From: an uncultured Opitutaceae bacterium
GTDB taxonomy: Bacteria; Verrucomicrobiota; Verrucomicrobiia; Opitutales; Opitutaceae
DNA length: 64,000 nt
Direction of reading: 5' to 3'
NCBI GenBank assembly: GCA_903890485.1
Contig: CAITBM010000116.1
Span: forward strand, 124,001 to 188,000
Position numbers and translations under genes: made by a program. Below are positions 6,629 to 56,705 of this stretch, piece after piece. Numbering within the stretch: position 1 is the first letter of the stretch; each line of letters starts with the position of its first letter. The notes under the pieces are model-generated. The model ran no database searches. It worked only from the letters and a program-made list of their open reading frames with translations, and had not been told where the DNA came from.

Positions 6629-6713
6629 TGGTGCTCGGGACAGGACTCGAACCTGCACGCCTTACGGCACACGCCCCTCAAACGTGTGTGTCTACCAATT
6701 CCACCACCCGAGC
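6629..6713 (-). tRNA. tRNA-Leu (anticodon GAG)
   Basis: The minus strand reads as a complete leucine tRNA of 85 nt. The acceptor arm GCTCGGG pairs with CCCGAGC, followed by discriminator A and an encoded CCA. The D-arm contains GGTAGAC, the anticodon loop TTGAGGG gives GAG (reading CUC/CUU), a long variable arm typical of class II tRNAs is present, and the T-arm has GGTTCGAGTCC. Upstream, a weak -10 (GATTAT, complement of 6734-6739) and a possible -35 (TGGACA, complement of 6759-6764) lie at the right distance, though the 19-bp spacer is long. Confidence 0.95.
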
Positions 6714-42573: not shown

Positions 42574-42933
42574 GGCCAAGTAGCGGTGATGATCGCGAAA
42601 TGCTCCGACCTCGCGGCCTGAGCTGCAAACGTGGCGGGGAGTCATAGGGTAAAGGGGTCTCCGAGCTACTAGGTCACGTTGACCGAGGAGCGTGCGCAAG
42701 AAGGATATCAGCAACATCCCGGAAATGCTGTGGGTGCCATCTCCCCCCAATGACACCAAGATGTTGGGAGCCATCGCGCCGCGTCGACCCGGCGCTTAGA
42801 GCATCAACGCTCGTCGCCGTTTGGGAGGGAGCCGCTGGGGTCACCCCTGGTAAATCGTGGCGGGTCACATAAAGAACCTCGGCGAAAACGATACGGCTTT
42901 GATTTTCCCATTTATGTGTCCATATATGGCCAT
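42574..42933. other. Gene-free interval between the CocE operon and the toxin-antitoxin pair
   Basis: These 360 bp separate two divergent units. The open frame of the CocE gene continues through part of it, but without protein-like composition. AT-rich sequence near 42895-42933 contains the toxin-antitoxin operator/promoter region. I see no further gene or RNA here. Confidence 0.4.
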
Positions 42934-42935
42934 AT
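42924..42935. promoter_or_regulatory. Perfect 12-bp palindrome over the antitoxin start
   Basis: ATATGGCCATAT is a perfect palindrome that ends inside the antitoxin ATG (42934). Antitoxins of the Phd/VapB type bind palindromes near their own start, so this is a likely autoregulatory operator. That role is inferred from family practice. Confidence 0.5.
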
Positions 42936-43263
42936 GAAAAAGAAGCCACGCATCCGCTCCACCTACCCCGAGGCAAAGGCGCATGTGCTAGCCGTCAAGG
43001 AAGCCGCCGCTGCCTACGGCATTGCCGTCGACGTTGTCACGGTACGGGAAGCCAAGGACCAGTTATCAGGCCTCCTCGACCGCGTCGAACAGGGCCGGAC
43101 TGTCGTGATCACGAGCGATGGCAGACCCAAGGCAATGATCGTTCGGTACAAGGCAATGATCACCGGCACCGGCTGGACCTCGCACCGTGAACTTCGTGCA
43201 AAAACCCTGATCGTCGAGGATTCGACCCCTCTTATTAGGGCCGAACGGGAAAGCAGCTTCTAG
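42934..43263 (+). CDS. Type II antitoxin, Phd/YefM-like
   Basis: This 109-residue protein carries a Phd/YefM-type segment in the middle: VTVREAKDQLSGLLDRVEQGRTVVITSDGRPKAMIV. That is the usual DNA-binding/dimerisation core of such antitoxins. It has about 36 extra N-terminal residues, basic at first (MKKKPRIR). Right after the core, KAMIVRY is followed by KAMITGT, reflecting a 21-bp tandem repeat with a 12-bp identical core. The C-terminal region would neutralise the toxin encoded 4 bp downstream. The ATG at 42934 is preferred over a GTG at 42916 because it sits in the operator-like palindrome. Confidence 0.8.
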   Translation: MKKKPRIRSTYPEAKAHVLAVKEAAAAYGIAVDVVTVREAKDQLSGLLDRVEQGRTVVITSDGRPKAMIVRYKAMITGTGWTSHRELRAKTLIVEDSTPLIRAERESSF

Positions 43264-43267
43264 GGCC

Positions 43268-43687
43268 GTGTACATCGACACCTCGGCATTCGTGAAGCTC
43301 TACGTGAGTGAGCCCGACTCGGAGGCCTGCGAGTCTGTGGTTGCCGGCCAGACGCTGGTGTCCTCGCGACTGCTCTCGTGCGAGTTTCGGTCGGCGCTCC
43401 TGAACAAGGAGTCCAGGGCAGTGATCTCAAGAGAAACGCGGGATGAAACATGGCTTAGGTTCCAACAGGATCTTGCCCGTGAAATGGTCGTCCTCGTGCC
43501 GTTGGACGACCGAATCGTTGCCGAGGCACAGGAAATCATGGATTCGCTCTTTCCGGACGTGCCCCTACGCACCCTCGACGCCCTCCACCTTTCCACGTAT
43601 GTCGGAATTGAATCGGGCCCGTTCTTCTCGAACGACCAAAGAATCCTCAGGGCCGCGAGAATGCTTGGGCTCAACCTGGCGAATTAG
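43268..43687 (+). CDS. PIN-domain toxin, VapC-like
   Basis: This 139-residue ribonuclease toxin starts at a GTG. The PIN-domain acidic residues are visible: Asp in YIDTSAFVKLY, Glu in the SCEFRSALLN segment, and Asp in RTLDALHL, with SNDQRILRAA near the end. Such toxins cut RNA, often initiator tRNA or rRNA. The gene starts 4 bp after the antitoxin stop, the standard operon order. It converges on nrdA with a 56-bp gap containing a long hairpin. Confidence 0.87.
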   Translation: MYIDTSAFVKLYVSEPDSEACESVVAGQTLVSSRLLSCEFRSALLNKESRAVISRETRDETWLRFQQDLAREMVVLVPLDDRIVAEAQEIMDSLFPDVPLRTLDALHLSTYVGIESGPFFSNDQRILRAARMLGLNLAN

Positions 43688-43743: not shown

Positions 43744-46700
43744 CTACTGGCAGGCCTCGCAGGTTCCGCCGTTGCGCATCGCCTCGATCGAACAGGCGGT
43801 CTTCTCCTCGGCGGTGTATTCCTTGGCGGGTGCGGTACCGGCCCCAAAAGGAGACGTTGTAAGGTTTGCCGCGTCGCGGGTCGCCGTCTCGGCCTTGGTC
43901 TCGCCCGCCGCACCGCGCATCTCCTTCTTCACCTGCACGGTAGCCTTCTCGATGTTGGAGGCGCCGAGGCCCCGGAGATAGTACGTCGTCTTTAGGCCCG
44001 TGTGCCACGCGTGGCGGTACATGTGGGAGAGCGTCTTCAGGTCCGGAGTCTTGATCCAGAGGTTCACCGACTGCGACTGGTCGATCCACTTCTGGCGACG
44101 CGCCGCCGCGTCGATGACCCACTTGTGGTCGATGTCGAAGGCCGTGAGGTACTTCTGCTTCAGGTCGGCGGGTATCCGCTCGATGTCCTTAAGCTCGCCG
44201 TCAAAATATTTCAGGTTGTCCATCATGTCCTGGTCCCAGAGGCCGCGGGCCTTCAGGTCCTTCACGAGGAAGGGATTCAGGACGATGAACTCACCGGAGA
44301 GGTTCGATTTGACGAACAAGTTCTTGTAGGTCGGCTCGATGCAGGGGGATGTGTTCGTGATGTTGGAGATCGTCGCCGTGGGCGCGATCGCGAGCACGTT
44401 GCTGTTGCGCATGCCCTGTGCAGCGATCTTCGCCCGGAGCGGCTCCCAGTTCATCCGCGAGGTACGCGGGACCTGGATCGGCAGGCCGCGCTCCTTCTCG
44501 AGGAGATCTACGGTATCGGGCGGCAGGAGCCCCCTGTCCCATTTGGATCCCTTGTAGGAGGAGTACGTTCCGCGCTCGGCCGCCAGGTCGGAGCTCGCCT
44601 CGTAGGCATAGAAGGCAATCGCCTCCATGGCCTCGTCGTTGAACTCAACGGCCTCGGGCGAGGCAAAAGCGACGCCCTTCATGTAGAGCGTGTTCGCAAG
44701 GCCCATCACCCCGAGCCCGATCGGCCGGTGGCGCTTGTTGGAGCGCTGGGCCGCCTCGGTCGGGTAGAAGTTGATGTCGATGACGTTGTCCAGCGCACGG
44801 ACCGCCATGCGGATCGTCTCCCGGAGCTTGCGATGGTCGAGGGCACCATCGGGCAAGAGGTGCGTCTCGAGGATCACGGAGCCGAGGTTGCAGACGGCCG
44901 TCTCGTCCTTGGACGTGTTGAGCGTTATCTCCGTGTTCTTGGTCACCAGGCCGTTGACCGTCCAGCTGTGCTCGTCGGTGAAGACCTGCAGGCAGTACGC
45001 GTCCTCGTTCGGGAGCTGCTCAAGAGCCTCGAAGGTCGCATGCATCTTCTGGACGTAACCGGGCTTCTCGAGGTTCGAGAGGAACCGGGCGTTGCCCCGG
45101 AGACGACCGATGCCGGTGAGGTTCTCCAGGATGCGGCAGCCGCGGATCGAGGAGACGTGCAGACTCCAGAGCTCGTTCTGGTAGTATTCCCTGGTCCCGC
45201 CATTTCCGTCCGGAAGCTCGGCAAGGCCCCCCGTGCGCATGCGTGTGAGCGAGGATTTGATTCCGAAATTGGCCAGGAGCAGCTGAACCTCGCCCAGGAA
45301 GTCGCGGCTAACCGATGCGAGGGCGCAGGTGGTCACCTCGCCGCTTGATTCGACCGTTGCATTCGCGGCGTAGAGGCCTCGGAGGTAGGCTGCAGCCGTT
45401 TCCCGGCTGCCGGTCCACACGAATTCCGGAACCTTGAGCTTCGACCCGGCCGTGAACCCGAGCCGCGAGAGAACACGGGCCAAGGGAGCGGAACAGAGGC
45501 GCTTCTTGTACTCGTCGCCACGGAACTTGGGCTCCAGCGAGGAGGTGGTCACAGCAGTTTCACCTGCGGCGTCCAGAATTCGGGACACGGCAAGCTCCAC
45601 ATCCTCAATGAGTGAGAACTCGTTGGCCCAAAGGTCGATGCATACCGAGGTGGAGTCGCCACCATGCTTCATGAACGTGCCGTCACCAGCAACGAAGCCC
45701 GCCACGAGAGCCAGGTCTGAGGAATCCTCTGTTCCCCAAAGTCCCTCGGACTGCTGGATCTCGATAAGGTCTCCGCGCTTGAGCTCCTGGGCCTCGACCC
45801 AGCCGCTTCCCACAACCCAAACCTTGTGGTCCGGGGTGACTTTGTGCGTGTAGCCCTCCTTGGTCCAGATGCGGACAATGGGGGCGTCAGGACGAGGAAG
45901 GAGCATCGGACCGGCCGGAACAGCACCGGACCGACCGAAAACCGTATTCACGGGTTCATCGGTGAGAAGGGTGTTCCCCGCTCCTCCGACGAGTGCCAGG
46001 CTTCTGGCCTTCTCGTAAAGATAGCCGATCGTTACCAGCCCCTCCGAAGTCACAACGCGCTGGTCGGCCGTGATGCAGCAGAGATTGGATGAATGCACGA
46101 CGCCCACGTGATCCTGCGGCGAGCGCACGTTGCAGGGGTCCTTGAAGGTGATCCAGGGGTGCCCGGTCTCGAAGATCATCGAGAGCATCTTCTTCCAGAG
46201 ATCCAGGGCCTCGACCTTGTGGCCGTGGATCTTCCCCTCTTCGGACAGTTTCTCGTAGTTGAGGTAAAGCTCCTCGAACTTGCGCCCATAGGCGTCGTGC
46301 AGATCCGGGACCTCGTTCGCGCGGAAGAGGGTCCAGGGGGCGCGGGCCTCCATGCGCTTCATGAACAGGTCGGGAATCCAATTCGCCGTGTTCATGTCGT
46401 GGGTGCGGCGGCGGTCATCTCCCGTGTTCTTGCGGAGCTCAAGGAACTCGAAGATGTCGTTGTGCCAGCTTTCCAGGTAGGCGCAGCCGGAACCCTTGCG
46501 CTTGCCGCCCTGGTTGACGGCCACGAGCTGGTCGTTGTGGAGCTTAAGGAACGGGATAACGCCCTGGGACTCGCCGTTGGTGCCGCCGATGTAGGCGCCC
46601 GTGCCACGGACCGCGGTCCATGAGCCGCCCAGGCCACCCGCCCACTTGGACAGATAGGCGTTCTCGGCGATTCCCCGCTGGAAGATACCCTCGATCGAGT

Positions 46701-48210
46701 CGTCGACGTAGTAGAGGTAGCAGCTCGAGAGCTGGCTGTGGAGCGTGCCGCTGTTGAAGAGCGTCGGGGTTGACGAGCAGAACCGGCGCGTCTTGTAGAG
46801 GTCGTAGAGGCCGACGGCCTTGGACTCGCGGTCGCCCTTCTCGTCAAGGAACAGGCCCATGGTGACCCGCATCCAGAAGACCTGGGGCGTCTCGATCCGG
46901 CGCGAGGGCTTCGAGACCTTGTCGACGATCAGGTAGCGATCATAGAGCGTCTGGACGCCCAGAAAGTCGAATTCCAGGTCGGAAGAGGGATCCAGTGCGC
47001 TCGCCATTCGGGAAAGGTCAAATTCCAAGAGCCGTGGATTGAGGCGCTTGATCGCGATCCCGTGCTCCACGTACTTCTTGAAGACCTTTTGGTGGCACTC
47101 CTTTAGCTTCGCGATCCCGTCGCGCATGATGTCCCAGCCTAGGACCTCCTCGTAAATGTAGGTCAGCTGGATGCGGCCGGCGAACTTGGCGAAGTCCGCG
47201 TCTTTCTCGATCAGGGTCTTCGAATTGAGGATGATCGTGGCATCCAGGTCCTTCTGGGATATCTGATCGTAGACGGCACGGCGGAGCTCTACCTCGATCT
47301 CGTCGGCCGAGAGGCACAGGTCGAGACCGGTCATCGCGAAATCGATCCTCTTGCGCAGGTCCGCCCCATCCCAAAGGACGGTCTCGCCGCTCACCTTCTT
47401 GACGACAACCAGGGTTTCCTGGCCCGCTGCGGCCTTATCCGCCGCCGGGACCGGCGTCTCGGCCTCGCCCCTGTCGCGGGCGGCGGCGCGCTCGGCCCTG
47501 AAGAGGATGTAGGCCTCGGCCACCTTGAAGTGCCCGGCCTTCATGAGCTCCTCCTGGACCATGTCCTGGACCTCCTCGATGCGAACAAAGGCCTGGTTGG
47601 ACCCGTTCACGCGGTCGGAGACCGCCTTGGAGATCGCCACGGCCGGGGCCGAATCACGCGCAAGCGACAGGAAGGTCTTCCGAACCGCGATCTCGACCTT
47701 CTGGTCGTTCCACGGAACCACCTGGCCATTGCGGCGGATCATGCGAACGGCGCTCTGCGCGGCCGACTCGCGGCTCACGGAGAGCTTGCGGGACCGGTTC
47801 AGCAGCAGGCTCTTCGCCACCATGTAGGCGTTGTTGTCCACGAGCGTCTTCTCGATCAGCTCGTAGAGGGCGTTCAGGGTCAGGCGGAGCGGGTTCTGCT
47901 TGCGCGACATCTCGACCAGGTTGCCGCCGAGCTCTCGGCAGATCTGGGAGACCCAGGCGCGGTTCTTGTCGTTGAAGATGTCCTTCTCGCCCTGGGAAAT
48001 CAGGACGTTGGTCAGTGCCTTCCCCAGGGTATCGGCAACCTCGGTCATGTCGAAGCGCTCCTCGCCGTGCGGGCACAGCAGGACGATCGGGGGCAGCGAG
48101 ATCTCAACGGCCGCGATGACGTCGCGCCAGGCGTAGATGGGTTTCTGCTCGGTGGGGGCATGGACCGTCCGCTTGAGGGCCAGGTCGTGTGCCAAAGGTG
48201 TGTTGTTCAT
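43744..48210 (-). CDS. nrdA: Class I ribonucleotide reductase alpha subunit interrupted by an intein
   Basis: The 1488-residue precursor reduces to about 1107 residues after removal of the intein at 712-1092. The mature enzyme reduces ribonucleoside diphosphates. The N-terminus holds two clear ATP-cones (about 155-242 and 265-350, e.g. RRNGQVVPWNDQKVEIAVRKTF) and a degenerate cone at about 50-140. Cys497 (LSSCYLYY) and Cys1107 (TAVCNLGS) match the redox pair equivalent to E. coli Cys225 and Cys462. Cys711 in SSNLC matches the thiyl Cys439, and the following Glu is in TEIT after the intein. The C-terminus ends CEACQ, the redox-shuttle CxxC. A ribosome binding site (AGGA) lies 10 bp upstream. 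nrdB is 149 bp upstream on the same strand. Confidence 0.95.
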   Translation of the reverse strand: MNNTPLAHDLALKRTVHAPTEQKPIYAWRDVIAAVEISLPPIVLLCPHGEERFDMTEVADTLGKALTNVLISQGEKDIFNDKNRAWVSQICRELGGNLVEMSRKQNPLRLTLNALYELIEKTLVDNNAYMVAKSLLLNRSRKLSVSRESAAQSAVRMIRRNGQVVPWNDQKVEIAVRKTFLSLARDSAPAVAISKAVSDRVNGSNQAFVRIEEVQDMVQEELMKAGHFKVAEAYILFRAERAAARDRGEAETPVPAADKAAAGQETLVVVKKVSGETVLWDGADLRKRIDFAMTGLDLCLSADEIEVELRRAVYDQISQKDLDATIILNSKTLIEKDADFAKFAGRIQLTYIYEEVLGWDIMRDGIAKLKECHQKVFKKYVEHGIAIKRLNPRLLEFDLSRMASALDPSSDLEFDFLGVQTLYDRYLIVDKVSKPSRRIETPQVFWMRVTMGLFLDEKGDRESKAVGLYDLYKTRRFCSSTPTLFNSGTLHSQLSSCYLYYVDDSIEGIFQRGIAENAYLSKWAGGLGGSWTAVRGTGAYIGGTNGESQGVIPFLKLHNDQLVAVNQGGKRKGSGCAYLESWHNDIFEFLELRKNTGDDRRRTHDMNTANWIPDLFMKRMEARAPWTLFRANEVPDLHDAYGRKFEELYLNYEKLSEEGKIHGHKVEALDLWKKMLSMIFETGHPWITFKDPCNVRSPQDHVGVVHSSNLCCITADQRVVTSEGLVTIGYLYEKARSLALVGGAGNTLLTDEPVNTVFGRSGAVPAGPMLLPRPDAPIVRIWTKEGYTHKVTPDHKVWVVGSGWVEAQELKRGDLIEIQQSEGLWGTEDSSDLALVAGFVAGDGTFMKHGGDSTSVCIDLWANEFSLIEDVELAVSRILDAAGETAVTTSSLEPKFRGDEYKKRLCSAPLARVLSRLGFTAGSKLKVPEFVWTGSRETAAAYLRGLYAANATVESSGEVTTCALASVSRDFLGEVQLLLANFGIKSSLTRMRTGGLAELPDGNGGTREYYQNELWSLHVSSIRGCRILENLTGIGRLRGNARFLSNLEKPGYVQKMHATFEALEQLPNEDAYCLQVFTDEHSWTVNGLVTKNTEITLNTSKDETAVCNLGSVILETHLLPDGALDHRKLRETIRMAVRALDNVIDINFYPTEAAQRSNKRHRPIGLGVMGLANTLYMKGVAFASPEAVEFNDEAMEAIAFYAYEASSDLAAERGTYSSYKGSKWDRGLLPPDTVDLLEKERGLPIQVPRTSRMNWEPLRAKIAAQGMRNSNVLAIAPTATISNITNTSPCIEPTYKNLFVKSNLSGEFIVLNPFLVKDLKARGLWDQDMMDNLKYFDGELKDIERIPADLKQKYLTAFDIDHKWVIDAAARRQKWIDQSQSVNLWIKTPDLKTLSHMYRHAWHTGLKTTYYLRGLGASNIEKATVQVKKEMRGAAGETKAETATRDAANLTTSPFGAGTAPAKEYTAEEKTACSIEAMRNGGTCEACQ
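44935..46077 (-). other. Intein within nrdA (381 residues, LAGLIDADG type, endonuclease degenerate)
   Basis: The insert begins at Cys712 (CITADQRV, splicing block A) and ends at Asn1092 (VNGLVTKN). Joining the flanks restores SSNLC-TEITLNTS, the normal reductase sequence. Block B is TPDH at intein residues 81-84. A first LAGLIDADG motif is LVAGFVAGDGTF (Asp132 kept). The second reads LRGLYAANATV at 232-242, where the usual DADG is AANA and the catalytic Asp is Asn, so homing activity is probably lost. The penultimate residue is Lys380 rather than the usual His, and the +1 extein residue is Thr. The host gene is intact around it, so splicing is presumably still required. Confidence 0.93.
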
Positions 48211-48359: not shown

Positions 48360-49445
48360 TCAGAGCTCGTCGTCCGATGCGACTTTCAGGGATGAGGACT
48401 TCTGGTACTCGGTGACTCGGCCCTCGAAGAAGTTCTGCTCCTTCGCTATGTCCATCATCTCAGCGAGCCACGGAAGCGGATTCTTGATGCCGCCTGAGAG
48501 CGGCGCCAAACCACAGCCCTCGAGGCGGCGATCGGCGATATAGTCGATGTAGGTCTGGAAATCCTCGAGACGCAGGCCCACGGCGTTCACGGGCAGGCAG
48601 TCGCGGATAAAGTCCTTCTCCAGAGCAATGGCCTCCCGCATCAGGCCGCGGAGCTCCTCCTTGTATTCCGGGGTCCAGATCTCTCGATTCTCCTCAATCA
48701 AGTCCATGAATAGGTTACGGAACACCTCGATGTGATTGGACTCGTCGCGAAGCGTGTAGCGGAACATCTGGCCGATGCCCGGGAACTTGTTCTGCCGGTA
48801 GAGGGAAAGAATCATCCCGAACAGCCCGTAGAACTGGGTTCCCTCCATGCATTGACCGAAGACAAAGATGTTAGACGCCAGGAGGCGCTTGTTCTCCAAC
48901 TTAGTGAGGTCCAGATCCCTGCGCAATTCCTTCGAGATCCTGGTGACGAATTCATTCTTCCGGACGATGGTCGGTACGTCCTCGAACATTGCTTCGCATT
49001 CGTGGGGATTAATGCCCAGGGATGCGATCATGTAGAGGAGCGAGTCGGCGTGGATGTTCTCCTCGTGGGCGTGGCGCCCCAAGACGAGCTTGAGCTCCGG
49101 GGCGGTCACCAGTTCACGGACCACGTGCTGGATGTTATCTCCCACAATGCCTTCTGCTGCCGAGAAATACCCAATTCCCATGCGGATGATCCACCGCTCG
49201 ACGTCCGACACCGCCTTGGTGTCGCGCCACTGCTCGATGTCCTTGCCCATCGGGATGTCCTCCGGCTCCCAGTGGTTGGCCTTCATCGTGCGGTAAAGGT
49301 CGTACGACCACTGGTACTTCAACGGCAGGAGGTTGAAGGTCATCGTCTCGCGGCCGTTGATGACCCGCTTGGCTGCGAACGCGGCTTCAGCCTTCGCCTG
49401 GTCGAGGACGAAGGTTTTGGTGCCGACTTGGAAGATTTTCTGCAT
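48360..49445 (-). CDS. nrdB: Ribonucleotide reductase beta subunit, class Ic-like (no radical Tyr)
   Basis: This 361-residue ferritin-like protein provides the radical-generating metal site. Predicted ligands are Glu98 (SAAEGIVG), Glu129 and His132 (EENIH), Glu201 (CMEGTQF), Glu235 and His238 (RDESNH). The radical Tyr of classical proteins should be four residues after His132; here it is Leu136. The first ligand is Glu, not Asp. Both features match the class Ic (Mn/Fe) group known from Chlamydia trachomatis, which has Phe at this position. Segments such as IMEG/CMEG, LSLYRQNK and IGLK/GLAPL near the C-terminus also resemble the chlamydial protein. nrdA follows 149 bp downstream. Confidence 0.95.
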   Translation of the reverse strand: MQKIFQVGTKTFVLDQAKAEAAFAAKRVINGRETMTFNLLPLKYQWSYDLYRTMKANHWEPEDIPMGKDIEQWRDTKAVSDVERWIIRMGIGYFSAAEGIVGDNIQHVVRELVTAPELKLVLGRHAHEENIHADSLLYMIASLGINPHECEAMFEDVPTIVRKNEFVTRISKELRRDLDLTKLENKRLLASNIFVFGQCMEGTQFYGLFGMILSLYRQNKFPGIGQMFRYTLRDESNHIEVFRNLFMDLIEENREIWTPEYKEELRGLMREAIALEKDFIRDCLPVNAVGLRLEDFQTYIDYIADRRLEGCGLAPLSGGIKNPLPWLAEMMDIAKEQNFFEGRVTEYQKSSSLKVASDDEL

Positions 49446-49775
49446 GGCTGCTGGCGCGAAAAGAGTGAGTTGCGGGGTAGTAACGGGCTATTTCCAACGC
49501 GAAATAAGGCTAAGCGACCAAAAGTTGCTGGAACTTATTTACGCGTTGTTGACCACAACAGGATGTGGTCCCCGGCCCGAACAACCACAACCTATTGAGC
49601 TTTGATTTTCGGCCGTCAATAGGTTTGTGCACCCCTATTGTTAAATTTGTCCAATATTTTTGGGTTGACAACAAAACGGCCCAAACTTGGCGGGAGGGGC
49701 CGCGGGCCCTGCTTTCTAGGGCACCCCGAGCGTCCTTGCAGACCCCCAGTGACAATAGGGGTATCCAGTCCTTAA
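49446..49775. promoter_or_regulatory. nrdB upstream / dinB downstream region with repeated operator-like motifs
   Basis: This 330-bp gene-free stretch must hold the nrdBA promoter on the minus strand. It contains four copies of CCTATTG in alternating orientation (49591-49597, 49617-49623, 49634-49640, 49753-49759). Two perfect inverted repeats use them: AACCTATTG/CAATAGGTT (49589-49625) and ACCCCTATTGT/ACAATAGGGGT (49631-49762, wide spacing). Two NrdR-box-like dyads lie nearer nrdB (separate entry). A possible -35 TTGACG is seen on the minus strand, but no convincing -10 pairs with it. Confidence 0.55.
49553..49600 (-). promoter_or_regulatory. Pair of NrdR-box-like dyads upstream of nrdB
   Basis: CCACAACAGGATGTGG (49553-49568) is the core of a perfect dyad GACCACA/TGTGGTC. 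A second site, CCACAACCTATTGAGC, lies at 49585-49600. Against the NrdR consensus as I recall it (ACACWATATATWGTGT) they match at about 10 and 11 of 16 positions. The 32-bp centre spacing (three helical turns, 16 bp between boxes) is the arrangement known for NrdR. They lie about 108 to 155 bp upstream of the nrdB ATG. Confidence 0.5.
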
Positions 49776-50966
49776 TTACCTATCCCCTCCCCCGCCGAGC
49801 TGGTGACCGCGGATGACCACCGATTCCCGGCCTCCCCGGTTAAGTTTGTCCATCACATCGGCGAGCTTCCTGCGCTTCTCATCGTTCTCCGCGAACATCT
49901 GCAGCTGCTCGGGTCCGTCCTCGACGCTTGAGAGGCGCACGCCGACCAGGCGCAGCGGGAGCTTCTTGCTCCACGCGGCCCGCAGGAGTGGGGTGACAAG
50001 GGGATAGAACGGCGCCTCCAGGTCGGTCGGCGCCTCAAGGCTCTGTCCGTGCGACTCGTGTGAGAAATCTGGATACCTCACCTTGACCGTGATCGTCCGC
50101 ACCTTGACGCCGTCGGAGCGAACCTTCGGGAGAAGTTCGTCCACCATGCGCTTGGCGACCTGCTCTACCTTGGCAAATTCCCTCTCGTCCTCCCCGAAGG
50201 TCTCCTGTTTCGAGTAGCTCTTCGCGTCGTCGTGCTCCACCTCGACCCGGCTTTCATCCCTTCCCCTAGCCATCTCGATGACCTGCCGCCAGCCCCGGCC
50301 AAAAAGGGACGCGAGTTCGCCCTCGCTCCTCGCGAACAGGTCGCGGATCTCGCGGATGCCAGCCTTGGCAAGGCCTGCCTCTGTCTTGGCACCTATTCCC
50401 GGGAGTTTCCCGACCGAAAGTCCCTCGAGGAACAAGGCCTCCTCCCCTGGCCGGACCACCACGAACCCCCGCGGCTTGCGGAGCTTGGAGGCGATCTGCG
50501 CCACCAGCTTGTTCGAGGCGATGCCCATGGAGACGGGGATCCGAAGCTCTTCCCAGATGCGTCCCTGGAGGCCGCGCACGGCGCCCTCGACGGCTGCCTG
50601 ATCCGGGAACCGGCAGGGACCCAGGTCCAGGTAACCTTCGTCGATCGAATTGCGCTGAACCTCGGGGGTGAGCGTCTCGCAGAGGTCAAACATGCTGCGG
50701 GAAACCTTCCCGTAGAGGCCCGCGGTATGGGGGATCATGACCAGGCCCGGGCACACGCGCAGGGCCCGCACCGTCGGCATCGGCGTGTACACCCCGCAGG
50801 CCCGGGCCTCGTAGCTGGCCGAGGAGATGATCCCGCGCTCGCGGCCGCCAACGGCGCACTTCTTGCCGACAAGCGAGGGGTCGCGCGCCTGCTCGCAGGA
50901 CACGAAGAACGCGTCGGCGTCCAGGTGCACGATGGTTAGGGGGCCCGACATGGCCATGCGCCTCAC
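49776..50966 (-). CDS. dinB: DNA polymerase IV (Y family)
   Basis: This 396-residue error-prone lesion-bypass polymerase has DADAFFVSCEQ (first catalytic Asp and Y-family FF), SASYEARACGV, and SIDEGYLDL with the catalytic Asp-Glu. The helix-hairpin-helix region reads VGKLPGIGAKT. Near the C-terminus EQLQMF is a good beta-clamp binding motif. The GTG at 50966 overlaps the stop of the upstream TPR protein gene (GTGA); ATGs at 50957 and 50951 are alternatives. It is the last gene of an operon of three TMTC-like proteins, an unusual setting. Confidence 0.95.
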   Translation of the reverse strand: MRRMAMSGPLTIVHLDADAFFVSCEQARDPSLVGKKCAVGGRERGIISSASYEARACGVYTPMPTVRALRVCPGLVMIPHTAGLYGKVSRSMFDLCETLTPEVQRNSIDEGYLDLGPCRFPDQAAVEGAVRGLQGRIWEELRIPVSMGIASNKLVAQIASKLRKPRGFVVVRPGEEALFLEGLSVGKLPGIGAKTEAGLAKAGIREIRDLFARSEGELASLFGRGWRQVIEMARGRDESRVEVEHDDAKSYSKQETFGEDEREFAKVEQVAKRMVDELLPKVRSDGVKVRTITVKVRYPDFSHESHGQSLEAPTDLEAPFYPLVTPLLRAAWSKKLPLRLVGVRLSSVEDGPEQLQMFAENDEKRRKLADVMDKLNRGGRESVVIRGHQLGGGGDR

Positions 50967-52909
50967 CGTCCGGCCCCAGCCCCTGCTGATTCGAGGCGCC
51001 GCGCCAGGGCGAACTGAACCTGGGCTTCGGCCTGGCGGCCCAATTTTCCCAGGACCATGCCCATTTGATAGTGGATATCCGCGCTATCCGGGCCGCGCCT
51101 CAGGGCCTCCTCGTATTCGGAAAGCGCCCGCTCCGGGAGCCCGGATCCGGAAAGTGCCAAACCATAATAGGCATGGGCTTCCGCGTATTCCGGTCGAATC
51201 CTTATCGCCTCCTCTATCTCGGGAATTGCCTCCTGGAATTGCCCTTGTTCGGCAAGGGCCAAACCCAAGTTGGCGTGCGCCTCGGCAAAATCCGGCTTCA
51301 TCGCCAGCGCTTGGCGGTATTCGAGCACCGCCTCGGGAAGCCGCCCCGAGTTGGCGAGCGCATTGGCGAGCCCGTAATGGACCCCGGCATGATTGGCCCC
51401 CAGACGAAACGCGTTCCTGAAATGAGCCTCCGCCAGGGAATACCGGCCAGCCTGGTTAAGCGCATATCCCCAATTGTACTCCGCGGCCGCGAACGAGGGT
51501 CGGGCCCGGAGGGCGCCGGCATAGGCCTCCTCGGCCTCCGCAAAACGCCCTGCCTTGGCGAGAAGATTGCCCAGGTTATTGTAGGCCTCCGGGTAGGTCG
51601 GGTTAAGACGGATCGCCTCACGGTAATGGGCGACGGCCTCCTGGGGCATCCCCTTCTGAACGAGCACCACGCCCAGGTTGTCATGCGCAAGCCAACTGTC
51701 GGGATTTCGAGCCAGGACCGAACGGTAGAGGGTTTCCACGTCCCGGTAATTGCCACACTGGCGCCACGAGAGGAAGGCCAGGAGCCCGACAAGGACGACA
51801 CCTCCAGCAAAGGCGGCGGGATACATGCGCGGAGCCAAGCGCGCCACGGCGGAGGCCAGCGCTGCTGCTATGGCTCCAATTGCGATGGCCGCCGCCAGAT
51901 ACTGAAAATGGTCGGCGACAAAGGAGAACACGAACGGGTACACGTCCACGAAACCAAGGGCCGGAAACAGGGTTCCCACATAGAGGAGGGCGGCCGCAAG
52001 GGTGCCCCGGCTCCTTCCGCGGAGCAGGAAGAGACCCCCGAGAAGGGCAACGGCGCCGAGCGGGAAGAGGTACTGCCCGGGGTCGTGGCGGTCCAGGGTC
52101 CAGCGCGGGTAGATGAAGACCAGGTCAGTCGGCCAGACCAGTTTCCCGAGGTAAAACCAGGAGGCCCGTCCCGCTACAAGGAGCCGCTCTGGGGCCCCGA
52201 GGCTGAACGCCGCGCCGCGGGCCCCAACGAAAGTCCGCTCGACCCAGGCCGTTAGTGCTCCCCCACCCGCACCCATTGCAAACCAGGGCAATAGCGGAAA
52301 CACGTCCGCTTTAAGCGACAGCCGGCCGCGTTTCCACCAGAGAACCACCAGGATCGCCGCCGGCAGCGTTGCGGTGACACTCTTGCTCAGGAGTGCCAGG
52401 GCGAAAAGGCCCAGGCCTGCCAGGTACCACCGCACCCGCCTTTGCGAGTCGAACCTCAGGTACGCGAGCGCAGCGGAGAAATAGAAGACCGCCGAAAGGG
52501 TGTTCTTCTGCTCCGACACCCAGGCCACCGACTCGACGCACACCGGGTGGACGGCAAAGACCGACGCCGCAAGCAGCGCCCCGGGCAAGGCCAAGCGCCT
52601 CATCAGGAGATAGAGGAGGCCGCACGCGGAAAGGTGCAGGACAACGTTCACCAGGTGGTAGCCGAGCGCTCCGTCGCCCCACATGCGGTGCTCGAGCCAG
52701 AAGGCGCTGTGGAGGACGGGATAGTACTGCTGGGTCGCGCCGACCTCGGTCCATATTCTCCACAGCCCTTGGACCGAGCGCAGCTCGGGCCGGGTCACGT
52801 GCGCATCGTCATCCCAGATAAACCCGCCGCCCAGGGCCGATGCATAGGCCGCCAGGACAAGCGCGGGGAGCAGGAGGGCGACCCCCAAGTGGTATCCAAA
52901 GCGGCGCAT
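50963..52909 (-). CDS. TMTC-like membrane protein with C-terminal TPR repeats (third of three)
   Basis: This protein of about 648 residues has about ten to twelve membrane segments in the first 390 residues and about seven tetratricopeptide repeats in the rest (e.g. YPEAYNNLGNLLAKAGRF). An acidic pair in the first periplasmic loop (GGFIWDDDAHVTRPEL, Asp33-35) and AVHPVCVESVAWVSEQKNTLS are the signatures of GT-C-fold protein O-mannosyltransferases of the TMTC/PMT type. It may transfer a polyprenyl-linked sugar to a protein. The ATG at 52909 is preferred over an upstream TTG. Its stop overlaps the dinB start (GTGA). The enzyme activity is inferred by family resemblance. Confidence 0.83.
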   Translation of the reverse strand: MRRFGYHLGVALLLPALVLAAYASALGGGFIWDDDAHVTRPELRSVQGLWRIWTEVGATQQYYPVLHSAFWLEHRMWGDGALGYHLVNVVLHLSACGLLYLLMRRLALPGALLAASVFAVHPVCVESVAWVSEQKNTLSAVFYFSAALAYLRFDSQRRVRWYLAGLGLFALALLSKSVTATLPAAILVVLWWKRGRLSLKADVFPLLPWFAMGAGGGALTAWVERTFVGARGAAFSLGAPERLLVAGRASWFYLGKLVWPTDLVFIYPRWTLDRHDPGQYLFPLGAVALLGGLFLLRGRSRGTLAAALLYVGTLFPALGFVDVYPFVFSFVADHFQYLAAAIAIGAIAAALASAVARLAPRMYPAAFAGGVVLVGLLAFLSWRQCGNYRDVETLYRSVLARNPDSWLAHDNLGVVLVQKGMPQEAVAHYREAIRLNPTYPEAYNNLGNLLAKAGRFAEAEEAYAGALRARPSFAAAEYNWGYALNQAGRYSLAEAHFRNAFRLGANHAGVHYGLANALANSGRLPEAVLEYRQALAMKPDFAEAHANLGLALAEQGQFQEAIPEIEEAIRIRPEYAEAHAYYGLALSGSGLPERALSEYEEALRRGPDSADIHYQMGMVLGKLGRQAEAQVQFALARRLESAGAGAGR

Positions 52910-52941
52910 TGGCTTCAAACCTCAGGGGTTCGCACCCGGAG

Positions 52942-54762
52942 TCAACGATTAGGCGGGTGGCGGGCGGCGCCAAACTCGGCTGCCGCCTCCGACTCCCGTC
53001 CCAGCCGCGAGAGCGCCTGGCCCAGGTTGTAGTGGGCGCCGGCATAGCCCGGGTCGATCCGGAGGGCCTGGCGGTACTGGGCCACGGCCTCGTCCAGGTG
53101 TCCCTGGCGGAACAGCGCGTTTCCCAGGTTCAGGCGAGCCTCCTTCAAGTCGGGGTCGAGCGAGACCGCCTTCCTGTATTCAGCCTCGGCCTGGTCCGGC
53201 AATCCCAAAGCCGCAAGTGAGAGGCCGAGACCGTTCCGTGCGGGGGCGCGGCCTGGCTCGAGGGCAAGCGCCGCACGGAACTGTCCGGAGGCCTCCGAGG
53301 CCCGGCCGGCCTTCAACAGCGAAAGCCCAAAATTGAAGTGGGCGCCCGCGAACGACGGGTCGAGCGCCACCGATGCCCGGTAGGTCTCGAGGGCCTTGTC
53401 CGTATCGCCCAGCTGCTCCTGGGCGTTTCCCAGGTTCGCCAGGGCTTCCGCGGAATCCGGGCGGAGCCGGACCGCCTCAAGGAGCTCCGTCCGGGCCAGC
53501 TCGGCGCGGCCCTCCTGGAGGAGGACTCTCCCGAGATTGCTGTAGGCGAGCCAGGAGCCGGGATTGCGGCGAACAGCCTCCGACCACAGCGAGCTCTCGT
53601 CCCGGAACGTGCCCGCATAGGCGTGCGACTCCCGTGCCAGGAGCGCCACCAAAGCCGCGGCCACAAGGGCGAAGGCGGCACGAGTGGCCCCTCCTTTTCC
53701 CCAGGCTCTCTCAGTCCAATCCTGGGCCGCACCGAATGCCACCGCGGCCAGGGCAACCACGCCCACCAGCGAAACGTAGGCGAAATGGTCCGCACGCGGT
53801 GAGATCCGCGAGTAGGCCATGGGAACGAGCCCCAGGACCGGGACCAGGTTCAAAAAGAACCACCCAAGGCCGAGGAGCGCGTGCCGACCGAAGCCTTCGC
53901 GCCTCCACCAAAGAACCCCGAGAAGCGCGGCGAGGGCAACCCATGGCAGCCACCCGGGCAAGGGTCCGGCAGCCGGGGGATAGATCGGAGCCAAATCAAA
54001 AGGCCAGACTGCCTGCCCCAGGTACGCGAGAAGGCTAAACCCCGCCTGGCAGGCCCGCTCAGCCAACGGATCATGGGGCCCCTTTAAACCGATGGCCCGG
54101 GTCGATTGGAACCAGACGGTGGCCGCGCCCATCGCTAGGGACGCGGCAAAGAACGGGGCCGCCTTCGCCAAGTCGCGCAGAGAGACGCGGCCCCGGCGCC
54201 ACCAGACGAACAACAGGATGGCGAACGGGAACATCACAACCGAGGTCTTGCAGGCGAGGGCCGCCGCGAAGCAGGCGAGCGCCCAGAGCCAGACGGCCCT
54301 GCTCCCCGAGCGGTTGAATGCGACGATGGCAATCGAGGCGAGAAGCAGTGGGGGGAGCGAAAGCGTGTTCTTGAGCTCGGAGATCCAGGCCACCGATTCG
54401 ACGGCGACCGGATGCACGGCAAAGAGAAGTCCGCCAAGGAAGGCGCCGCCAACCTCGAGGGCCGCTAGGAGCCGCCAGACCAGGAGTGCCGACAGCACGT
54501 GGAGCCCAAGGTTCACCAGGTGGTAGCCCAGAGGATTGGATCCCCAGACCTGCCACTCGGCCCACTGCACGCTGGCCTTGAGCGGGAAATAATCCATGCC
54601 CTCGGGGTGGACCCAGGCCCTCCACCAGCCGCCCGGCTCCCGGAGGGCGGCGTTCTGCGCCACTTCCAGTCCGTCGTCCCAGACCCAGGTGCCGTGCAGG
54701 CAAGGGCCGTAGACCCAGCCGGCCACCAGAACTATCAGGAGAGAGCGCAGGAGGGTCCTCAT
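52942..54762 (-). CDS. TMTC-like membrane protein with C-terminal TPR repeats (second of three)
   Basis: This protein of about 606 residues has the same architecture: a multi-spanning N-terminal half and about six TPRs after about residue 400. The first-loop acidic pair is HGTWVWDDGLEV (Asp29-30), and AVHPVAVESVAWISELKNTLSLP is the second signature. The ATG at 54762 overlaps the stop of the preceding gene (ATGA), so it is preferred over the longer start at 54798. It is clearly paralogous to its two neighbours but diverged from them, suggesting tandem duplication and specialisation rather than recent copying. Confidence 0.83.
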   Translation of the reverse strand: MRTLLRSLLIVLVAGWVYGPCLHGTWVWDDGLEVAQNAALREPGGWWRAWVHPEGMDYFPLKASVQWAEWQVWGSNPLGYHLVNLGLHVLSALLVWRLLAALEVGGAFLGGLLFAVHPVAVESVAWISELKNTLSLPPLLLASIAIVAFNRSGSRAVWLWALACFAAALACKTSVVMFPFAILLFVWWRRGRVSLRDLAKAAPFFAASLAMGAATVWFQSTRAIGLKGPHDPLAERACQAGFSLLAYLGQAVWPFDLAPIYPPAAGPLPGWLPWVALAALLGVLWWRREGFGRHALLGLGWFFLNLVPVLGLVPMAYSRISPRADHFAYVSLVGVVALAAVAFGAAQDWTERAWGKGGATRAAFALVAAALVALLARESHAYAGTFRDESSLWSEAVRRNPGSWLAYSNLGRVLLQEGRAELARTELLEAVRLRPDSAEALANLGNAQEQLGDTDKALETYRASVALDPSFAGAHFNFGLSLLKAGRASEASGQFRAALALEPGRAPARNGLGLSLAALGLPDQAEAEYRKAVSLDPDLKEARLNLGNALFRQGHLDEAVAQYRQALRIDPGYAGAHYNLGQALSRLGRESEAAAEFGAARHPPNR

Positions 54763-56705
54763 TTTTGCCCTCCCCGGGCCTCGATCGCGCGAAGCCACTC
54801 AAGGTTGTCGCTGGCGTCCTTGTAGCCCGGCTTCAGGGCGAGTGCGCGCCCGAACTCCGCCCTCGCCTCTGCCAGTCTCCCGGCCTCGGCCAGCAGGCCG
54901 CCCAGGTTGTTGTGGGCCTCGGCTGCCCCGGGATCGATGCGGATCGCCTCCCGGTACTCGGCCATCGCCTCGGCCGGTCGGCCGAGTTGGACCAGCACGT
55001 TTCCGTGGGCGGCGTGGGCCTCGGCGTAGCCGGGGCTCAGCCGGACAGCCGCTTGGTAGGCCTCGTCGGCCCCTCGCAACTCCCCTAGCTCCACCAGGCA
55101 CCCACCCAGGTCGAAACAGGCGTCCGCCCGGCCGGGATCGAGCTTCAGCGCCACGCGGTACTCGTCCGCAGCGTCGGCGTGTCGGCCAACCAGGTCGAGC
55201 GCCTCGCCGAGCCGGCAGTGGACGGACGGGTCATTGGGCAGGGAGACCAGCGCCGCCCTGAACTCCTCGACCGCCTCGCCCGGGCGTCCGCCCGCCGCAA
55301 GGGCCTTTCCGAGGTTGTAATGCGCCGTGGCGAACGCAGGAACAAGGTGAAGGGCCCGCCTGAAGTCCGCGATGGCGGCGTCGCCCCTCCCTCGGTCCGC
55401 CTCGATGACCCCCAGGTTGTTCCAGGCCCCCGCATTGGCAGGGACCTTGGCCGCCACGTCGCTCCAGAACTCAAGGGGCCCCTGGTAGACCTTGCAGCGC
55501 TCGACCGTGAGCGCGGCCAGGGCCATTGCCGCAACGAAGACCACTCCGGTGAACCCGCGGCCCGGGCCCAAGCGCCTTTCCAGGGCCACGCAAGCAAGCA
55601 CGGCAAGGCTCGCGAGCGGCAGGTACATGCGGTGCTCGGCCATGATCTCCGTGGCCACCGGAATGAAGCTCGACGACGGCGCCAGGGTCACCAGGAACCA
55701 GGCGCCCAGGAAACCCAGTGCCGGGGAGCGAACGAGACCGATCCCCGTCACCACTCCAATCAGGACGGCCGCACAGGCTCCCAGGGCCACAGCCACGGGT
55801 GATCCTGCCAGGAGCCGGCCGTAGTCACCCACGAGCGGGTACGGCCAGACCGACAGCTTCAAGTAATGAAGGACCGCCTCAAACTGGGTGAGCAGGTAAG
55901 CCCACCAGGACACTCCCGCGCCAAATCCCGCAGTCCCGGAGCGTCCTCCCGTGCCCGCAACGAGCAGGGCGAGCGGGATCCAGCTGGCCATTAGACCCAC
56001 CAGGACCGACCGGTGGCGACGCCACGACTCCCCGAACGATCCCGAAACAAAACAGCGGTCGTAGAGGAGCACCAGGAGGGGGGCGGTCGCCATCGACTCC
56101 TTGGTCCCCACGCCCAGGAGGCAGGAGAGGAAGGCCACGCCCGACCACAGGGCCTTGCGGGGGCCTCCCTCGGCGTGCCGAATGAACGCATAGAGGGTCA
56201 GCAGGTAGAGGAACCCCATCAAGGACTCCGCGCGCTGGATGACATAGGCCACCGACTCGGTCTGGAGCGGGTGAAGCGCCCAAAGGAGGGAGGAGGCGAA
56301 CGCGATCGCCAGGGCCCTCGCGGGCGAGAGGGCGCCGGCTGCAGGCATCGCAAGGGTCCTGCGGACGATGCCAAAGAGGACAAGGGAGGCGGCCACATGG
56401 ATCGCGATGCTCACGGCGTGGTAGCCCCAGGGGTTCACGCCTCCGAGCGCATAATTGAGGGCCAGGGAGACGTTCAACACCGGCCGCCCAGTCACCGTTG
56501 CGCCCCCCCTCGGGAAGAGGGCGTCAAACAGGTGCCGGATCGTCGGGTTGCCCGGGACCGAATCAATGTCGTCAAAGAGGAACGCCCCGCCGAGTGACCC
56601 GAGGTAGGCACATCCCACCGCAACCCCGATGGCCACCGCGCAAAGAGCGAGCGCCCGCCGCGGGTCGCGCGCCTGGGCCGGGCGGGGCTTCTTGGGGGCC
56701 ATCAT
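54759..56705 (-). CDS. TMTC-like membrane protein with C-terminal TPR repeats (first of three)
   Basis: This 648-residue protein starts the TMTC-like operon. The acidic pair is GGAFLFDDIDSVPGNPTIRH (Asp45-46), and LHPLQTESVAYVIQRAESLMG matches the conserved second loop of TMTC proteins, which usually carries ...TEAV...RAELL. About six TPRs form the C-terminal third (AWNNLGVIEADRGR onward). It follows a strong terminator that isolates it from the TonB receptor gene. The next gene overlaps its stop. The most likely role is glycosylation of exported proteins; no polyprenyl-sugar synthase is nearby. Confidence 0.83.
   Translation of the reverse strand: MMAPKKPRPAQARDPRRALALCAVAIGVAVGCAYLGSLGGAFLFDDIDSVPGNPTIRHLFDALFPRGGATVTGRPVLNVSLALNYALGGVNPWGYHAVSIAIHVAASLVLFGIVRRTLAMPAAGALSPARALAIAFASSLLWALHPLQTESVAYVIQRAESLMGFLYLLTLYAFIRHAEGGPRKALWSGVAFLSCLLGVGTKESMATAPLLVLLYDRCFVSGSFGESWRRHRSVLVGLMASWIPLALLVAGTGGRSGTAGFGAGVSWWAYLLTQFEAVLHYLKLSVWPYPLVGDYGRLLAGSPVAVALGACAAVLIGVVTGIGLVRSPALGFLGAWFLVTLAPSSSFIPVATEIMAEHRMYLPLASLAVLACVALERRLGPGRGFTGVVFVAAMALAALTVERCKVYQGPLEFWSDVAAKVPANAGAWNNLGVIEADRGRGDAAIADFRRALHLVPAFATAHYNLGKALAAGGRPGEAVEEFRAALVSLPNDPSVHCRLGEALDLVGRHADAADEYRVALKLDPGRADACFDLGGCLVELGELRGADEAYQAAVRLSPGYAEAHAAHGNVLVQLGRPAEAMAEYREAIRIDPGAAEAHNNLGGLLAEAGRLAEARAEFGRALALKPGYKDASDNLEWLRAIEARGGQK

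Follow-up and report, generated by a model that had tools for sequence, protein, structure and literature searches.

A class Ic-type ribonucleotide reductase small subunit with leucine at the radical position, from a Verrucomicrobiota-centred clade

Class Ic ribonucleotide reductase (RNR) chemistry is known above all from Chlamydia trachomatis (Ct), with Phe at the radical site. The available passages of PMC8463856 describe a Mn(IV)/Fe(III) site in place of the tyrosyl radical in the Ct enzyme, together with a Phe/Glu pairing, and they too place Phe at the class Ic radical site, whilst an excerpt of PMC4118035 proposes that Ct W51/Y222 deliver the activation electron, and gives the Mn(IV)/Fe(III) state as EPR-silent (S=1). 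According to part of PMC3824934, which cites Högbom 2010 on this point, documented R2c proteins (small subunits of this class) include ones with Leu, Ile and Val instead of Phe; the same part treats class Ic proteins as one clade and mentions another study where they were polyphyletic, and a section of PMC4390871 has the proteins without the Tyr clustering tightly. Here we analyse the small subunit (NrdB, or R2) encoded in a 64,000-nucleotide stretch of an uncultured Opitutaceae genome (hereafter the window), which has Leu at this position. We found no study of the Leu clade as such in the open-licence PMC literature, which is not a claim of its absence from print. Our analysis adds the pairing of the first metal ligand with the radical site over 246 NrdB stretches, and the size of the Leu clade, its coherence and its distance from the chlamydial branch.

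The nrdB gene, its ligands and its partner

The nrdB gene (48360..49445, minus strand) is an ATG-to-stop open-reading frame encoding a class I RNR small subunit of 361 aa, identified by phmmer and by profile matches to NCBIfam NF005550 (320 bits, curated cut-off 309) and Pfam PF00268 (218.5 bits, cut-off 33.6). Its best phmmer matches amongst PDB chains are to Ct R2 (1syy, 3.6e-78; 4d8f, 3.7e-78; 2ani, 5.1e-78), followed by 6y2n (E 2.2e-66) and 6zjk (E 1.2e-38). The single PF00268 match in the whole 3.1-Mb assembly (144 contigs, 97% complete) is nrdB itself, and the window NrdB is the small subunit of the sole class I RNR found in this genome. L060, among the 80 nearest named loci, encodes an NrdB 98% identical to it.

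Multiple alignment gives the metal ligands as E98, E129, H132, E201, E235 and H238, aligned with Ct E89, E120, H123, E193, E227 and H230. Their codons all lie on the minus strand, at 49152..49154 (Glu98, the first ligand, which is Asp in Tyr-type proteins), 49059..49061 (Glu129), 49050..49052 (His132), 48843..48845 (Glu201), 48741..48743 (Glu235) and 48732..48734 (His238). The Leu136 codon (CTC on the minus strand, 49038..49040) aligns with Ct Phe127, Tyr138 aligns with Ct Tyr129, and the whole Glu129-Tyr138 segment aligns to 1syy without gaps. An earlier note, made from the letters alone, had named these six ligands, with Glu and not Asp as the first of them as in the chlamydial enzyme, and had put Leu at the radical position four residues after His132; every one of these positions was correct when aligned with Ct R2. 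It had also raised the chance that re-registration might bring a Tyr, such as Tyr138, onto the radical position. This was checked, and the ungapped alignment and the match to Ct Tyr129 rule Tyr138 out as the radical site; a Tyr matching Ct Tyr129 is present in 25 of 25 Phe-type rows of the multiple alignment. Leu136 is no sequencing error or annotation artefact either, because it is conserved across loci (Glu98 and Leu136 occur together in 80 of 80 loci, L060-L139 in the genome_contigs collection, the best 80 of 583 confirmed) and across stretches (160 of 246, see below).

The residues of the electron and radical relay are likewise in place, with W59, F205, Y230, D234 and Y347 aligned with Ct W51, F197, Y222, D226 and Y338; Tyr347 (48405..48407, minus strand) is the C-terminal radical-relay Tyr. 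All 35 Leu-type rows of the tree alignment have W59, F205, D234 and Y347; Y230 is shared by 33 of them and Y138 by 32. Four loci (L052, L057, L176 and L177, from genomes G148 and G239) carry a second nrdB in tandem to the normal one and 58-61% identical, which keeps all ligands and Leu136. The Tyr residues that match Ct Tyr129 and Tyr222 are both missing from it, position 138 being His and position 230 Asn; a more distant relative (L178, 49%) also has His138.

The partner gene nrdA (43744..48210, minus strand; NF005544, 1234 bits) begins 149 bp downstream of nrdB and encodes a catalytic subunit with an ATP-cone, 1488 aa long before splicing. It holds an in-frame intein of 381 aa (residues 712-1092; 44935..46077, minus strand) with a LAGLIDADG domain; the intein sits right after Cys711, the Cys of the NLC motif and, by E. 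coli numbering, the thiyl-radical Cys439. The intein site is crossed by a single NrdA match in 91 loci, with no more than 7 inserted residues; outside the window's own genome the intein recurs in L092, L101, L105 and L122 (73-75% identity), and the other loci stop short of the site or are not resolved there. Inteins usually have a penultimate His; that of nrdA ends in VTKN, with Lys at the penultimate position. Just downstream of nrdA, on the opposite strand, two small adjacent open-reading frames (42916-43687, plus strand) resemble by eye a Phd/YefM-type antitoxin and a PIN-domain VapC-type toxin.

Upstream of nrdB lie two possible tandem NrdR boxes, 32 bp apart (49553..49600, minus strand): GCTCAATAGGTTGTGG (49600-49585), found by eye only, and CCACATCCTGTTGTGG (49568-49553), both assigned on what we take to be the NrdR consensus. 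The palindromic one of the two was present in 16 of 23 upstream regions searched (the window and 22 chosen loci), and an inverted repeat, CCTATTGA...TCAATAGG, overlaps the first possible box, its core pattern recurring in three of the 23. The genome has an NrdR gene on contig C63 (TIGR00244, 167.6 bits, cut-off 124.65). Upstream of nrdB and its promoter region, also on the minus strand, an open-reading frame at 49776-50966 resembles by eye Y-family DNA polymerase IV, and three consecutive ones of 618-651 aa (50963-56705, minus strand) resemble by eye membrane proteins with C-terminal TPR repeats; the Rfam scan of the window gave one match, a tRNA at 6632-6713. As for other reductases, PF13597 (NrdD) had no match in the genome's contigs, whilst contig C13 encodes an 834-aa protein (L273:1137-3641, minus strand) with an ATP-cone, a TIGR02505 RTPR match of 187.8 bits, below the cut-off of 340.05, and distant similarity to monomeric class II RTPR (PDB 1l1l, E 6.8e-27). 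By these matches it is probably a divergent adenosylcobalamin-dependent RNR, and it could carry part of dNTP synthesis.

Pairing of the two sites and phylogeny of the Leu clade

To type relatives, the window NrdB was used as a tblastn query against the collected loci and stretches spanning at least 250 query residues were kept, shorter ones being dropped, which left 265 stretches, 246 of them distinct. The set was gathered by similarity to a Leu-type query, so its proportions are not those of nature: 160 stretches paired Glu as first ligand with Leu at the radical site, 23 paired Glu with Phe, 63 Asp with Tyr, and any other pairing was absent, with neither Ile nor Val at the radical site among the 246. 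No row of a 92-row alignment contradicted this typing. Counted in this way the coupling of the two sites refers to sequences and not to events, and as the three states need about three changes on the tree (the least possible being two) it rests on few events.

Genome sampling for the census covered three phyla: that of the window, that of genome G321 (Planctomycetota, if L119 is rightly labelled) and that of genome G320 (Pseudomonadota, if L078 is rightly labelled). In the window's own phylum 90 of 288 sampled genomes had a match, of which 60 were Glu+Leu, 11 Glu+Phe and 12 Asp+Tyr, seven being low-identity matches that were not read. The G321 phylum gave matches in 35 of 246 sampled genomes, and the 30 read comprised 3 Glu+Leu, 10 Glu+Phe and 17 Asp+Tyr; for the G320 phylum the figure was 108 of 349 (1e-20), and the best 30, which were read, comprised 1 Glu+Leu, 2 Glu+Phe and 27 Asp+Tyr. 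Two of the four Glu+Leu cases from these latter phyla (L203 from G321 and L242 from G320) look like binning errors, sharing 87-88% identity with the window NrdB and sitting on 6.7- and 3.1-kb contigs; the other two (L204 and L205) are 78% identical. Opitutaceae-like nrdB genes of 85-88% identity recur in records labelled as a Rubrivivax MAG (L078/L242), a Planctomycetaceae MAG (L119/L203) and Akkermansia muciniphila (L135), all probably binning or labelling errors.

Matches on plasmids (337 records) and phages (1875 records) were all below 60% identity, and among the nine that we chose to read (seven plasmid, two phage) three were Glu+Phe, six Asp+Tyr and none Glu+Leu. Viral contigs yielded no relative in a first scan and one in a second, L272 (IMG/VR contig 3300020008_000002; 39% identical). 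By alignment, its NrdB, from a contig classed as viral, combines a Glu first ligand with a radical-site Phe, and it is a possible viral class Ic R2.

Trees were built from sets of 92 and 41 rows with both signature columns left out. The Leu rows form one clade in both, supported at 98/96 (92 rows) and 100/99 (41 rows). The Phe rows do not form one group and are placed among the Asp+Tyr rows from the G321 and G320 phyla that we presume to be NrdBz-like (97/92 and 88/85, respectively). The 41-row tree also places the outgroup rows L194 and L196 within the Phe/NrdBz-like group, with a branch length of 9.26. Both trees come with a warning that the Leu clade is joined by long outgroup branches; the deep order is unsure, and the place of this clade outside the Phe/NrdBz-like group may be a long-branch artefact. 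Constraining Leu and Phe rows as one clade cost 7.03 log-likelihood units in the 41-row set, under the same warning, and was not rejected (AU p 0.171). The phylogenetic placement proposed in the earlier note thus gave one well-supported Leu clade, with the Phe rows sitting beside Tyr-type NrdBz-like rows. On this evidence the Leu proteins are a clade of their own, sampled almost only in Verrucomicrobiota, and not a point variant of the chlamydial protein. The free trees do not nest the Leu clade among the chlamydial-type Phe proteins, but the long branches leave its depth unsure and the joint Leu and Phe clade was not rejected. The Glu/non-Tyr state may thus have had either a single origin, with a return to Asp/Tyr in the NrdBz-like proteins, or separate origins.

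The oxidant and its rivals

The Leu-type NrdB probably works like a class Ic R2, with a metal-held oxidant that a relay would pass to Cys711 of NrdA. O2 would react with the reduced dimetal site held by E98, E129, H132, E201, E235 and H238, whilst the extra (activation) electron would enter via W59/Y230. Because the radical position lacks an oxidisable Tyr, the oxidising equivalent would stay on the metals, most likely as Mn(IV)/Fe(III), and be relayed by H132, D234, W59 and Y347 to NrdA, where Cys711, after splicing of the intein, would become a thiyl radical. We infer both the storage on metal and the path of the electrons, as well as the metals themselves. Leu is as redox-inert as Phe, so a metal-centred oxidant is the most likely reading, and the consistent pairing of first ligand and radical-site residue in 246 of 246 stretches lends it support, though from few changes on the tree. 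The coupling is not universal, since class Id combines Glu with Tyr (PMC8463856, in the passages available).

How far the chlamydial metals apply to the Leu clade depends on the surroundings of the site, which we compared in 25 Phe rows, 19 NrdBz-like rows and 32 Leu rows, the 35 of the tree alignment minus three divergent ones. Up to 7 residues from a ligand, 47 columns are conserved in both Leu and Phe rows, and the two groups differ at 22 of them, amongst these positions Y93, H125, H127, N130, D134, C199, Q204, E240 and R243; between the Phe rows and the NrdBz-like Tyr rows the corresponding figure is only 3 of 45 (E98D, T135A and F136Y). Away from the ligands 35 of 109 columns distinguish Leu from Phe rows, and a concentration of the divergence at the metal site is not supported (Fisher p 0.10 against 22/47); from these counts, the near-ligand difference is part of a general divergence, no proof of remodelled chemistry. 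Given these differing residues, the chlamydial cofactor cannot simply be read across: Mn/Fe, the most likely metal pair, is an extrapolation from Ct, and the chlamydial chemistry may not carry over to the Leu clade. The class Ic-type label given in the earlier note therefore holds for its Glu first ligand, the lack of a radical-site Tyr, the relay Tyr and the adjacent NrdA, whilst its Mn(IV)/Fe(III) oxidant has the standing of that extrapolation.

It is rather unlikely, but worth stating, that the Leu clade represents a distinct cofactor type, which would combine an origin separate from the chlamydial Phe type, a metal-centred oxidant with a metal or form other than Mn(IV)/Fe(III) and a second sphere remodelled at Tyr93, His125, His127, Asn130, Asp134, Gln204, Cys199, Glu240 and Arg243; were it true, much of a phylum would have this as its usual class I RNR. 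The narrower proposal that the oxidant is metal-centred yet differs from Mn/Fe (a di-iron species, say, or the Mn2(IV,III) of class Id) we consider unlikely. Glu98 and the absent Tyr would fit any metal-based oxidant, the near-ligand residue set of the Leu clade is distinct, and class Id, which pairs Glu with Tyr, also keeps its oxidant on the metals according to part of PMC8463856, but the class Id-type Tyr is absent from the site and the closest sequence match is the Mn/Fe enzyme of Ct, all of these being indirect points.

An amino-acid radical displaced to another side chain of the Leu clade, such as Tyr93, Tyr48 or Cys199, is an improbable reading that takes its appeal from conservation. 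Tyr93 and Tyr48 are invariant in the 32 Leu-type rows (Tyr93 also in the three left-out rows) and Cys199 is present in 31 of them, whilst the 44 Phe-type and NrdBz-like Tyr-type rows all have Phe at 93 and have Trp (42) or Arg (2) at 48. Cys199 is found in 3 of 13 outgroup rows as well, however, and the structure of NrdB predicted from 20 close sequences is a poor model (mean pLDDT 53.4, pTM 0.57), too poor to place the three residues near the metals. Least probable is that the missing canonical Tyr marks a degenerate or inactive subunit, or an R2lox-like oxidase with no RNR function: the gene is the sole nrdB found in its genome and adjoins nrdA, Tyr347, F205 and the relay residues are kept, the Leu type occurs widely in the phylum (in 60 of 90 genomes that gave a match), and R2lox, as described in portions of PMC3824934 and PMC4118035, has no C-terminal Tyr and carries Ala where Ct has F197. 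The class Ic-like reading, with the oxidant on the metals, implies that this bacterium makes its DNA building blocks with a Leu-type subunit whose oxidising power is probably stored on metal ions. The Verrucomicrobiota-centred Leu clade is large, with Glu as first ligand in all Leu stretches read, and allows a harmless test of whether the choice of metal is set by Phe itself or by Glu and the missing Tyr; the Phe and Tyr NrdBz-like proteins form the natural comparison set, as two of their three near-ligand differences fall at the signature sites.

Comparison with known small subunits

Like the class Ic R2 of Ct (1syy, 4d8f, 4m1h, 4m1i), the window NrdB has six ligands with Glu first and no radical-site Tyr, and equivalents of W51, Y222, D226, Y338, F197 and Y129 are all present; unlike it, the window NrdB has Leu for Phe, belongs to a separate clade in the free trees and differs near the ligands as described above. 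Several features of a class Ic R2 are thus found here, namely the E,E,H,E,E,H ligands, a redox-inert radical-site residue, the relay Y347/W59/Y230 and the partner NrdA, although a class read strictly as Phe/Glu would not cover Leu136. The NrdBz-like Tyr-type proteins of the G321 and G320 phyla fall in the same larger tree group at about 34-40% identity, but have an Asp first ligand and a radical-site Tyr, as in class Ia. Class Ia/Ib R2 have Tyr at the radical site, where this protein has Leu136, and class Ie R2 have lost carboxylate metal ligands, whereas all six ligands are present here. R2lox is set apart by Y347 and F205, both present in the window NrdB. The class Id R2 of Flavobacterium johnsoniae resembles it in having Glu at the metal site, and its oxidant is metal-based in the passages of PMC8463856 available, but class Id keeps the Tyr and the window NrdB pairs Glu98 with Leu136. 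Class O ferritin-like proteins also have Phe or Leu at the radical site, and are described as a separate class in the accessible part of PMC9531940, whilst the partner of the window NrdB is a class I NrdA with an ATP-cone.

R2c proteins in which Leu, Ile or Val replaces Phe (credited to Högbom 2010 in the part of PMC3824934 cited above) match it in both the kind and the site of the substitution. The earlier note had singled out Leu at a position held by Tyr or Phe elsewhere; the substitution is real, but of a sort already documented in class Ic R2. Since such replacements are documented, the window NrdB belongs to a large branch of an already known kind, class Ic-type R2 with Leu.
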